From Erwinia pyrifoliae DSM 12163 (lineage in GTDB: Bacteria; Pseudomonadota; Gammaproteobacteria; Enterobacterales; Enterobacteriaceae): a DNA stretch of 52,044 nt. Location: NCBI RefSeq assembly GCF_000026985.1, contig NC_017390.1:986762-1038805 (forward strand). Direction: 5' to 3'. Positions 17,158 to 20,974 of this stretch are shown one piece after another. Under the pieces are notes generated by a model. The model was not told where the DNA came from, ran no database searches, and saw only the letters and a program-made list of their open reading frames with translations. Position numbers and translations under genes: made by a program. The stretch's first letter is position 1, and each line of letters begins with the position of its first letter.

Positions 17158-17952
17158 TTAGCCTTCGTGCGTCAGAACGGCCGGAATGGTGTCATCTTTA
17201 CGCAGCGTCATAATTTCGCAGCCGTTTTCAGTGACCACAATAGTGTGTTCGTACTGCGCGGACAAGCTACGGTCTTTGGTTTTTACCGTCCAGCCATCTT
17301 TCATGCTGCGGATGCGGTAATCGCCGGCGTTGACCATTGGCTCAATGGTAAATGCCATACCCGGCTGTAACACCACGCCGCCATCATCGGCATCGTAGTG
17401 CAGCACCTGAGGCTCTTCATGGAAGCCCTTGCCGATGCCGTGGCCGCAGTACTCGCGTACCACGGAGAAGTCCTGTGCTTCAACAAACTTCTGAATCTCG
17501 CGGCCCAGGGTACGCAGGCGGATGCCCGGTTTGACCATGCGCAGGGCAAGATACAGGCTGTCCTGCGTCACACGGCACAGGCGCTCGCCCTGAATGGTTG
17601 GTTTGCCGACGATAAACATGGTGGAGGTATCGCCGTGATAGTCATCTTTGATCACCGTGACGTCGATGTTAACTATATCACCATCCTTAAGGATTTTATC
17701 GTCACTCGGGATGCCGTGGCACACCACTTCGTTGACCGAGATGCAGACGGATTTCGGGAAGCCGTGATAGCCGAGACAGGCGGAAACCGCGTGCTGCCTG
17801 TTCACGATGTGATCGTGACACAGGCGGTCCAGTTCTGCGGTGCTGACGCCGGGTACGACGTGTTCTGCAATCATCTCAAGAACTTCGGCGGCCAGGCGAC
17901 CGGCCACACGCATTTTTTCGATTTCTTCAGGAGTTTTTATTGAAATTGCCAT
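17158..17952 (-). CDS. map: Type I methionine aminopeptidase Map
   Basis: Removes the initiator methionine from nascent proteins. 264 residues, the same as E. coli. All five metal ligands are in place: D97 (VNIDVTV), D108 (HGDTS), H171 (YCGHGIG), E204 (TIEPM) and E235 (QYEHT). The ribosome site is weak. It is divergent from rpsB, the usual arrangement. Confidence 0.97.
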
Positions 17953-18130: not shown

Positions 18131-18204
18131 GACGATTCTTTGTACGTTGAATTTTATTGTCGCAGAGAAACGCATAACTCTCACTATGTGTAAATAACAC
18201 ACAC

Positions 18205-18305
18205 GTATCGACACCTACGCCGGGGTGCCTTGCTGGTTCGAGAGAACCGACGGGTCGGTTGTATGGGATGCGTGGAGGCTTAACCCCAAACTATCTATAG
18301 AGGTA
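18205..18305 (+). ncRNA. tff: rpsB leader RNA (t44/S2-binding leader)
   Basis: The leader keeps the enterobacterial S2 leader pattern: ACACACGTATCG, GGGGT 18222-18226 able to pair with ACCCC 18283-18287, a hairpin AACCGA 18245-18250 with TCGGTT 18255-18260, the GGATGCGTGGAGGC block, then TATAGAGG as ribosome site. In E. coli this region is the t44 (tff) RNA and the site of S2 autorepression. The limits given are approximate. Confidence 0.7.
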
Positions 18306-18308
18306 ATC

Positions 18309-19040
18309 ATGGCAACTGATTTAATTTCCACGCGTGATCTGGTCCAGGCCGGTGCACACTTTGGTCACCAGACCCGTTTCTGGAACCCGAAAATGAAGCC
18401 ATACATCTACTGCGTTCGTAACAAAGTTCACATCATCAACCTTGATATAACGCAGCCAATGTTCGAAACAGCCTCGGATGAGCTGGAAGAAATTTCTTCC
18501 CGTGAAGGCAAGATCCTGTTTGTTGGTACCAAGCGCGCTGCAAGCGAAGCGGTAAAAGAGTACGCTTTGAGCTGCGACCAGTTCTACGTTAATCACCGCT
18601 GGTTGGGTGGCATGCTGACTAACTGGAAAACCGTTCGTCAGTCAATCAAGCGTTTGAAAGATCTGGCAATTCAGTCTCAGGATGGCACTTTCGACAAGCT
18701 GACCAAGAAAGAAGCGCTGATGCGCGCTCGTGAACTTGCCAAGCTGGAAAACAGCCTGGGTGGTATCAAAGACATGGGCGGCCTGCCGGATGCACTGTTT
18801 GTTATCGATGCCGATCACGAACACATCGCTATCAAAGAAGCAAACAACCTGGGTATCCCGGTGTTTGCAATCGTTGATACCAACTCAGATCCAGACGGCG
18901 TTGACTACATTATCCCGGGTAATGACGATGCGATCCGTGCGATTAGGCTGTACCTGAGTATAGTGTCTGCCGCTATACGTAAAGGTTGCTCTAAAGATCT
19001 GGCTCAGCAGGCTGAAGAAATCTACGCTGACGCTGAGTAA
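18309..19040 (+). CDS. rpsB: 30S ribosomal protein S2, strongly diverged
   Basis: S2 sits on the back of the 30S subunit and is needed for S1 docking. 243 residues from ATG 18309 (E. coli 241), behind AGAGG. The family framework is intact ([71 protein letters not shown]). But against E. coli S2 from memory about 45 positions differ, including GARNK to CVRNK (35-39), the segment at 46-66, and most of 212-243, plus a 2-residue N-terminal insertion. Three ATA codons (I47, I218, I223) and an AGG (R213) fall exactly on changed sites. The frame is intact and this is the canonical locus, so it is probably functional. The frame open from 18225 is leader sequence. Confidence 0.93.
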
Positions 19041-19241: not shown

Positions 19242-20093
19242 ATGGCTGACATTACCGCTGCTCTGGTAAAAGAACTGCGCGAGCGTACTGGCGCAGGCAT
19301 GATGGATTGTAAGAAAGCACTGACCGAAGCCAACGGCGACATCGAGCTGGCGATTGAAAACATGCGTAAATCTGGCGCGATCAAAGCGGCGAAAAAAGCA
19401 GGCAACGTAGCGGCTGACGGCGTGATCAAAACCCGCATTGAAGGCAACTACGGCGTGATTCTGGAAGTGAACTGCCAGACTGACTTCGTGGCTAAAGATG
19501 CCGGTTTCCAGGCCTTTGCTGACAAAGTGCTGGATGCGGCCGTTGCAGGCAAAATCACTGACGTTGACGTGCTGAAAGCGCAGTTCGAAGAAGAGCGCGT
19601 TGCGCTGGTCGCGAAAATTGGTGAGAACATCAATATTCGCCGCGTGGCTTCCCTGGAAGGCGACGTGCTGGGCAGCTACCTGCACGGCGCACGTATCGGC
19701 GTGCTGATCTCCGCTACCGCAGCGGATGAAGAGCTGGTTAAGCAGCTGGCTATGCACGTAGCAGCCAGCAAGCCAGAATTCGTTAAGCCAGAAGACGTGT
19801 CTGCTGAAGTGGTAGAAAAAGAGTACCAGGTTCAGCTGGATATCGCCATGCAGTCCGGCAAGCCAAAAGAAATCGCTGAAAAAATGGTTGAAGGCCGCAT
19901 GAAGAAATTCACCGGTGAAGTGTCTCTGACCGGTCAGCCTTTTGTTATTGACCCAGCCAAGACCGTGGGTCAGTTGCTGAAAGAGAAAAACGCAGACGTG
20001 ACCAGCTTCATCCGCTTTGAAGTGGGCGAAGGCATCGAGAAAGCTGAGACAGATTTCGCGGCGGAAGTCGCTGCTATGTCCAAGCAGTCTTAA
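19242..20093 (+). CDS. tsf: Elongation factor Ts
   Basis: Guanine-nucleotide exchange factor for EF-Tu. 283 residues, the same as E. coli: an N-terminal UBA-like domain with [15 protein letters not shown], then the core TDFVAKD, HVAASKP and QPFV segments. It is close to the E. coli protein over its full length, in contrast to its partner rpsB. ATG 19242 follows GAGGATTAGAGA. Confidence 0.97.
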
Positions 20094-20248: not shown

Positions 20249-20974
20249 ATGGCGACCAATGCAAAACCCGTATATCAACGTATCCTGCTGAAACTGAGCG
20301 GTGAAGCACTGCAAGGTGCTGAAGGTTTCGGTATCGATGCCAGCGTGCTGGATCGTATGGCTCAGGAAGTGAAAGAGCTGGTAGAGCTGGGCATTCAGGT
20401 GGGTGTGGTGATCGGTGGTGGTAATCTGTTTCGCGGCGCTGGTTTGGCGAAAGCGGGTATGAATCGCGTTGTCGGCGACCATATGGGCATGCTGGCAACG
20501 GTGATGAATGGCCTGGCCATGCGTGATGCGCTGCATCGTGCTTATGTCAACGCCCGCCTGATGTCCGCTATTCCACTTAACGGCGTTTGCGACAACTACA
20601 GCTGGGCAGAGGCGATCAGCCTGCTGCGTAATAACCGCGTGGTGATCTTCTCCGCCGGTACCGGTAACCCGTTCTTTACCACTGACTCCGCAGCCTGTCT
20701 GCGCGGTATCGAAATCGAAGCCGACGTGGTACTGAAGGCCACCAAAGTAGATGGGGTTTATTCTGCCGATCCGGTGAGCAACCCGGATGCCGTCCTGCAC
20801 GAGCGCCTGACCTACGCTGAAGTGCTGGATAAAGAGTTAAAAGTGATGGATCTGGCGGCCTTTACCCTCGCGCGTGACCATTCTCTGCCTATTCGCGTGT
20901 TCAATATGAACAAGCCTGGCGCGCTGCGCCGCGTGGTAATGGGCGAAAAAGAAGGTACGCTGATCGCGCATTAG
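20249..20974 (+). CDS. pyrH: UMP kinase PyrH
   Basis: Phosphorylates UMP to UDP; a hexamer of the amino-acid-kinase fold. 241 residues, the same as E. coli, with KLSGEAL near the N-terminus, [10 protein letters not shown], the [10 protein letters not shown] phosphate-binding segment and [17 protein letters not shown] at 20192-20197 may be its -10. It is followed by frr on the same strand. Confidence 0.97.

Follow-up and report, generated by a model that had tools for sequence, protein, structure and literature searches.

The gene rpsB, which encodes the 30S ribosomal protein uS2, lies in a 52,044-nucleotide stretch of the genome of the plant-associated bacterium Erwinia pyrifoliae DSM 12163 (contig NC_017390.1) that we analyzed as a whole and refer to as the window; all positions below are counted from its first letter (Table 1). 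The gene stands in the order map-rpsB-tsf-pyrH-frr and follows a t44 leader, as is usual for bacterial uS2. Its product scores 338.3 bits with the NCBIfam model TIGR01011 (cut-off 76.3), with residues 6 to 226 aligned. The predicted structure (pLDDT 91.7, pTM 0.86; TMq 0.92 to 4toi) is a confident model that retains the uS2 fold, with its alpha/beta globular domain and coiled coil. The zinc ligands H20, D190, D206, and D207 are invariant in a 49-sequence alignment, and the protein also retains the contacts listed for Arg208, Asn203, and the zinc pocket. The E. coli ligands are H18, D188, D204, and D205 in the published description (PMC4288201).

Table 1. Features of the rpsB region, with positions in the window
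Feature	Position	Strand	Remarks
rpsB, 30S ribosomal protein uS2, 243 aa	18309..19040	+	Intact ORF; single genomic copy found
map, control neighbor	17158..17952	-	98.5% identical to sister G016
tsf, control neighbor	19242..20093	+	99.3% identical to sister G016
pyrH, control neighbor	20249..20974	+	99.6% identical to sister G016
t44 RNA (RF00127), 5' of rpsB	18180..18284	+	76.9 bits; 103/105 identical to G009
Two-residue insertion D4 L5	18318..18323	+	Absent from 20 other aligned S2
Hot segment 1, residues 4-66	18318..18506	+	20 substitutions plus the insertion
S1-docking hairpin strand, codons 32-36	18402..18416	+	E. coli F30, F32, G33, A34 to Y, Y, C, V
Helix alpha2 region, residues 45-66	18441..18506	+	Net-charge shift
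Conserved core, residues 67-211	18507..18941	+	Six substitutions only; coiled coil, most zinc ligands
Hot segment 2, C-terminal helix, residues 212-241	18942..19031	+	13 substitutions

The reading frame is unbroken over the whole ORF. Upstream, the frame stays open to a GTG at 18225, across most of the t44 element, which gives an ORF of 271 aa; the open frame at rpsB likewise exceeds the protein length in relatives. An overlapping antisense gene finds no support: the antisense frame holds two internal stops in E. pyrifoliae and one in a sister, and no minus-strand ORF of at least 100 aa lies inside rpsB.

An earlier note on this DNA, made from the sequence alone, had put S2 at about 45 differences in 241 positions from E. 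coli S2, plus a two-residue insertion. Alignment with one E. coli uS2 (P0054) yields 46 substitutions and a two-residue insertion (195 of 243 positions identical, two gap positions). The changes that the note had singled out are also seen in alignment: GARNK has become CVRNK, and EKTVPMFNEALAEL is replaced by a different 14-residue segment. The survey took in 40 genomes: its own, 23 of the same genus, and 16 that belong to other families of the order. The protein is 80 to 84% identical to uS2 of the same-genus genomes, with 84% the best value from any of the 39 others, and relatives do not have its altered residues in common with it. A search of about 5.8 billion proteins, in which scoring covered the 7999 candidates with the most shared words and 120 of those were listed, gave 83 to 84% as the best non-self identity among the matches listed.

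This divergence is confined to a single gene of its neighborhood. Against the sister genome G016, the rpsB product is 83.8% identical, where pairs of sisters share 97.9 to 99.2%, whereas the products of tsf and pyrH reach the values in Table 1 and that of frr 98.4%. Among map, tsf, pyrH, and frr, which the earlier note had taken for ordinary orthologs and which range from 98.4 to 99.6%, divergence is thus restricted to rpsB. Other genes compared with G016 gave 96.0% (ispC), 94.0% (uppS), 95.1% (cdsA), 95.3% (dapD), and 95.5% (glnD). We conclude that the divergence of uS2 is real, and stronger than the earlier note had it. Neither of the two outcomes that the note had set against it, the residues being common to most close relatives or uS2 diverging no more than the tsf and pyrH products, was observed.

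On a wider scale, a Kluyvera uS2 query was scored against 198 genomes of the family. All genomes scoring below E. pyrifoliae were of at most 1.1 Mb, except G067, which has 5.1 Mb and is 49% complete. Other families of the order nearly reach the score of E. pyrifoliae uS2 (431.6 to 434.5 versus 436 bits). The protein therefore resembles the uS2 of small-genome members of its family, which, by their genome size, are probably insect symbionts, in its distance from ordinary uS2. Unlike theirs, the E. pyrifoliae genome is complete at 4.07 Mb, with ordinary neighbors around rpsB and no strong AT drift; GC content of the gene is 0.497, and 0.497 to 0.521 in relatives.

We placed 39 uS2 substitutions and the D-L insertion on the terminal branch, along with 18 codons that are silently off the sister consensus. 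The 20 other S2 that lack the insertion are 19 of the same genus and one of the same order. The replacements are clustered: residues 1-66 and 212-243, which make up 98 of the 243 codons, hold 33 of the 39 replacements and only 5 of the 18 silent changes (P = 4.7 × 10−5). They also strike well-conserved positions. At 24 of the 39 changed sites, a single residue is shared by 95% or more of a set of 88 distinct Enterobacterales uS2. The derived residue occurs in none of the 88 at 29 sites, and 12 of these 29 are also missing from 35 further S2, mostly from other families and classes with one same-family genome included. Each of the remaining 10 derived residues is found in one or more of the 88 relatives. 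Outside the sister group, I166 and A187 are what most sequences carry, so the truly new residues number fewer than 39. M8, L12, F34, and G35, each at least 90% conserved among 49 sequences reaching other classes of the phylum, have all changed. Base-biased hypermutation finds no support as a source, as the mutation spectrum is mixed.

In the predicted structure, hot segment 1 would comprise a helix (8-13), two strands (33-37 and 40-43), and a second helix (45-64), and the C-terminal helix is predicted to start at 209. PMC4288201 describes the N-terminal helix of E. coli S1 as sitting on the uS2 beta-hairpin and helix alpha1, with S1 Phe5 and Phe9 stacking on uS2 Phe32. That stacking residue is Tyr34 in E. 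pyrifoliae, and F30Y, G33C, A34V, and V14A (E. coli numbers) have changed as well, so that the docking hairpin is altered and the S1-anchoring region, to which the earlier note had drawn attention, does take part in the divergence. The net charge of residues 45-66 is −6, where 19 of 20 relatives have +1 and the other has 0. Dimer contacts in 100S ribosomes have been placed at the N-terminal hairpin and alpha2 of uS2 in B. subtilis, and the E. coli 100S interface includes the uS2 C-terminus (PMC6746590). Judging from these published contact regions, the altered parts of uS2 would overlap the parts that contact S1 and the second ribosome of a dimer. The protein is also among the RNA polymerase contacts listed in PMC6566652.

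Co-evolution with an altered S1, which the earlier note had raised, is not supported, and neither is a matching change in 16S rRNA on the same branch. S1 differs from that of G009, G016, and G017 at 0, 3, and 2 positions, and its first 20 residues are identical in all four genomes. We found no 16S rRNA difference that is fixed in the seven own copies and absent from G016 and G017, the two sisters on which this comparison rests, as G009 gave no 16S match. None is listed against these two at positions 1063-1110 (helices 35-37). The seven 16S copies (L151, L154, L157, L160, L163, L166, and L169; G000) clearly differ from one another, and in the record at least one has N at a few positions. The ribosomal proteins of the S10, spc, alpha, and str groups are 98.0 to 100% identical to those of G016 (L4 lowest), with S3, S4, S5, S8, and S11 at 99.4 to 100%. 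RMF (100%), HPF (96.8%), RpoB (99.6%), Era (97.7%), and the first 467 residues of RpoC (99.8%) are likewise close to G016. S21 and RaiA, compared by family-model score, are equal or nearly equal in the four genomes. With S1, 16S rRNA, the S10, spc, alpha, and str proteins, RMF, HPF, RpoB, and Era all ordinary, co-evolution with S1 is unsupported. S6, S18, S20, IF1-3, and Hfq are further possible partners.

In the comparison with G016, dN of rpsB is 0.086, against 0.002 to 0.027 in nine other genes, and its dS of 0.223 lies within their range of 0.145 to 0.461. Branch-unique codons in rpsB count 36 replacement and 12 silent changes in E. pyrifoliae, and 0/7, 0/4, and 2/1 on three sister branches. 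The nine other genes (3080 codons) give 38/97 here and 51/138, 40/167, and 31/188 in the sisters; scaled by these genes, the replacement excess on the E. pyrifoliae branch is highly significant (Fisher P = 1.6 × 10−16). Silent substitutions in rpsB are also raised (12 versus 7, 4, and 1; P = 2 × 10−4, odds ratio 5.1). A two-ratio codon model assigns an omega of 0.75 to the branch and 0.08 elsewhere (2ΔlnL = 59.7).

We also ranked rpsB in a wider comparison with G016 that covered nine regions and 370 ORF pairs, with 359 usable values, many of them from spurious or accessory ORFs. The gene stands 22nd by dN and 20th by omega among the 359, and 12th and 6th among the 270 pairs of at least 150 aa. 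By these ranks it is not the fastest gene, yet it is the outlier among the translation genes tested. The fastest-evolving stretch met against G016 is a block near rpoB (about 48 to 58 kb of the joined 60 kb L277+L243+L244; G000:C3, about 298000-308000), where identity falls to 44% over a series of ORFs of about 260 aa and one of 808 aa. Judged from the ORF sizes, it may be a fimbria-like cluster.

Based on these data, we favor an adaptive remodeling of uS2 at its S1/mRNA-exit face, most likely driven from outside, and give this reading a probability of about 0.4. In this reading, the native rpsB underwent a lineage-specific burst of replacements that remodeled helices alpha1 and alpha2, the S1-docking beta-hairpin, and the C-terminal helix; the leader, the zinc site, and the coiled coil were preserved. 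The driver would most likely be an outside factor, such as a phage or toxin protein, that binds this face of uS2; we infer an outside driver because no tested partner of the cell's own changed with uS2. A surface turned from basic to acidic would weaken the binding of such an antagonist, and the change from Phe to Tyr at the S1 contact would leave an aromatic residue to hold S1 attached. As the next adaptive option, the set-point for S1 retention, 100S hibernation, or mRNA docking would have shifted. Escape from a toxin, phage factor, or antibiotic, as the earlier note had put forward, may be at work, but our findings indicate no particular agent. The more specific proposal, that uS2 was rebuilt with inverted electrostatics in an arms race with a ribosome-binding antagonist (a phage or toxin protein) and now presents a distinct initiation or hibernation surface, is speculative and on the unlikely side.

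Locally relaxed constraint followed by compensation is a serious rival, because the selection tests are assumption-dependent, silent sites have moved moderately fast, and codon bias has fallen. We consider it quite possible, though tentative. Under this explanation, constraint on the S1/mRNA-exit face was lost or weakened in the lineage, or a slightly deleterious change (the D4-L5 insertion, for example) became fixed, with no need for an antagonist. Replacements would then gather roughly as fast as silent changes, while helix alpha2 and the C-terminal helix readjusted to each other. Plain counting agrees with this, with a replacement/silent ratio of 1.39 or 1.55 in the hot codons, close to the silent rate of the gene (P = 0.26 and 0.23 versus 1), as does the whole-gene omega, for which a value of 1 is not rejected. 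The branch-site test, in our own implementation, put 24% of sites in a class with omega 3.0 (LRT 4.7, P = 0.03) and returned an LRT of 0 for each of three sister branches. Runs with the branch length set to 0.12, 0.20, and 0.30 speak against mere relaxation, with omega of 12, 7, and 4 (P = 1 × 10−10, 7 × 10−6, and 6 × 10−4). Masking nine multi-nucleotide codons removes significance (P = 0.8 with the length free, 0.24 with it fixed at 0.20), as relaxation would have it. Positive selection on rpsB is therefore not firmly shown; the outcome is fragile and hinges on assumptions that move P from 1 × 10−10 to 0.8.

Codon use bears on the same rival. Codon adaptation of rpsB is 0.675, the lowest of 21, the others having 0.747 to 0.826. 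Together with the raised silent change, this drop fits weaker selection on the gene. The replacement codons appear unpolished, with the rare Ile codon ATA three times and AGG and TCG once each, and silent changes have turned CTG into TTG or CTT. Such codons suggest either a recent burst or weak codon selection on the gene. Given hot-codon ratios near 1, the lowest codon adaptation, and more silent change, part of the protein may have lost constraint. Loss across the whole protein is unlikely, since strong constraint persisted in the core (replacement/silent ratio 0.13 or 0.12 by counting). Relaxation also sits poorly with 24 of the 39 changes falling where 95% or more of 88 relatives agree on one residue, and with the finding that no tested partner was lost or altered.

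A detour through redundancy seems to us improbable. A temporary second rpsB, on a plasmid or from a duplication, would have evolved at low expression and then gene-converted the native ORF, so that the leader and downstream spacer stayed native. This would account for the roughly fivefold rise in silent changes inside the ORF and the low codon adaptation, while the leader and the rpsB-tsf spacer evolved as in the sisters and silent counts in tsf are ordinary on this branch. The core, however, is constrained in a way that a redundant gene would not be. A second, normal rpsB, which the earlier note had suggested looking for, does not turn up, with a single match in the whole genome of 4,072,827 bases (chromosome 4,026,286 bases); a second-copy paralogue, with the standard copy elsewhere in the genome, is rejected on the same search. 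Plasmid, phage, and viral-contig collections held nothing closer than 82.4% (DNA) or about 80% (79.8%, protein).

Horizontal replacement, or a mosaic rpsB from a distant or unsampled bacterium, is disfavored and very improbable. The residues L11, Y32, Y93, and Y200 are common in more distant S2, and of the 18 silent states, up to 10 also occur in Xenorhabdus loci and 9 in Photorhabdus and one Serratia; the states shared with Xenorhabdus are scattered and mostly common in other genera. Against a donor, no listed match apart from the protein itself goes above 75% within residues 1-92 or 56% within residues 200-243. A mosaic scan in 30-codon windows found an Erwinia-set gene closest or tied in 20 of 22, the two exceptions differing by one base. 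A silent-codon tree of 201 burst-free codons groups rpsB with G017, G016, and G009 (UFBoot 91, 93, and 82), with a silent branch of 0.036 versus 0.010 to 0.022, and the flanks show no grouping with a donor. We therefore read the gene as having, most probably, evolved in place. Two S2 proteins with high scores, P0007 and P0121 (329 and 359 aa), were rejected as donors, as their N-terminal part is duplicated; one has no contig, and an assembly artifact is likely. A sequencing or assembly artifact at rpsB itself is nearly excluded, since the 90% uS2 cluster of the protein collection spans two member sequences on eight contigs, the frame is intact, the neighbors are normal, and we found no point in its support.

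Set beside known systems, the protein is like E. coli RpsB and bacterial uS2 at large (TIGR01011/PF00318) in family model, fold, zinc ligands, coiled coil, operon position, and t44 leader, and unlike E. coli RpsB in its 46 substitutions and two extra residues and in the rewritten S1-docking hairpin, alpha2, and C-terminal helix. The E. coli mutants rpsB1ts and ksgC, the latter a kasugamycin-resistance mutant of rpsB, illustrate how alterations in uS2 can affect S1-dependent growth or the response to a drug. These mutants are single laboratory changes, and that of rpsB1 sits in the coiled coil according to PMC10931766, a region which is conserved in E. pyrifoliae uS2.

As far as our searches of the open-access literature show, the uS2 burst in E. 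pyrifoliae is undescribed; a word search of the text of PMC2897811 returned no mention of rpsB, ribosomal protein, or protein S2. Essential ribosomal proteins serve as slow clocks and as markers in concatenated phylogenies. Here, one of them has moved about as far as the uS2 of other families of the order while its tested partners stayed unchanged, which makes the lineage a natural experiment on constraint. An adaptive change would point to a ribosome-directed antagonist, so far unrecognized, that acts on the S1/mRNA-exit face, and relaxed constraint to a dispensable contact there. In both cases, the derived uS2 offers a multi-site variant ready for studies of S1 anchoring, 100S dimerization, and uS2-mediated autoregulation.

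A separate observation concerns the 3070-bp plasmid contig of this genome (L182; G000:C1). Another contig matches E. pyrifoliae plasmid records at 99.9% over 20,000 bases. The 3070-bp contig matches a plasmid of Erwinia pyrifoliae Ep1/96 over its full length at 100.0%, and the annotation of that plasmid names a glycoside hydrolase of family 19 together with an Hcp-like type VI tube protein, possibly a secreted cargo carried on a tiny plasmid.
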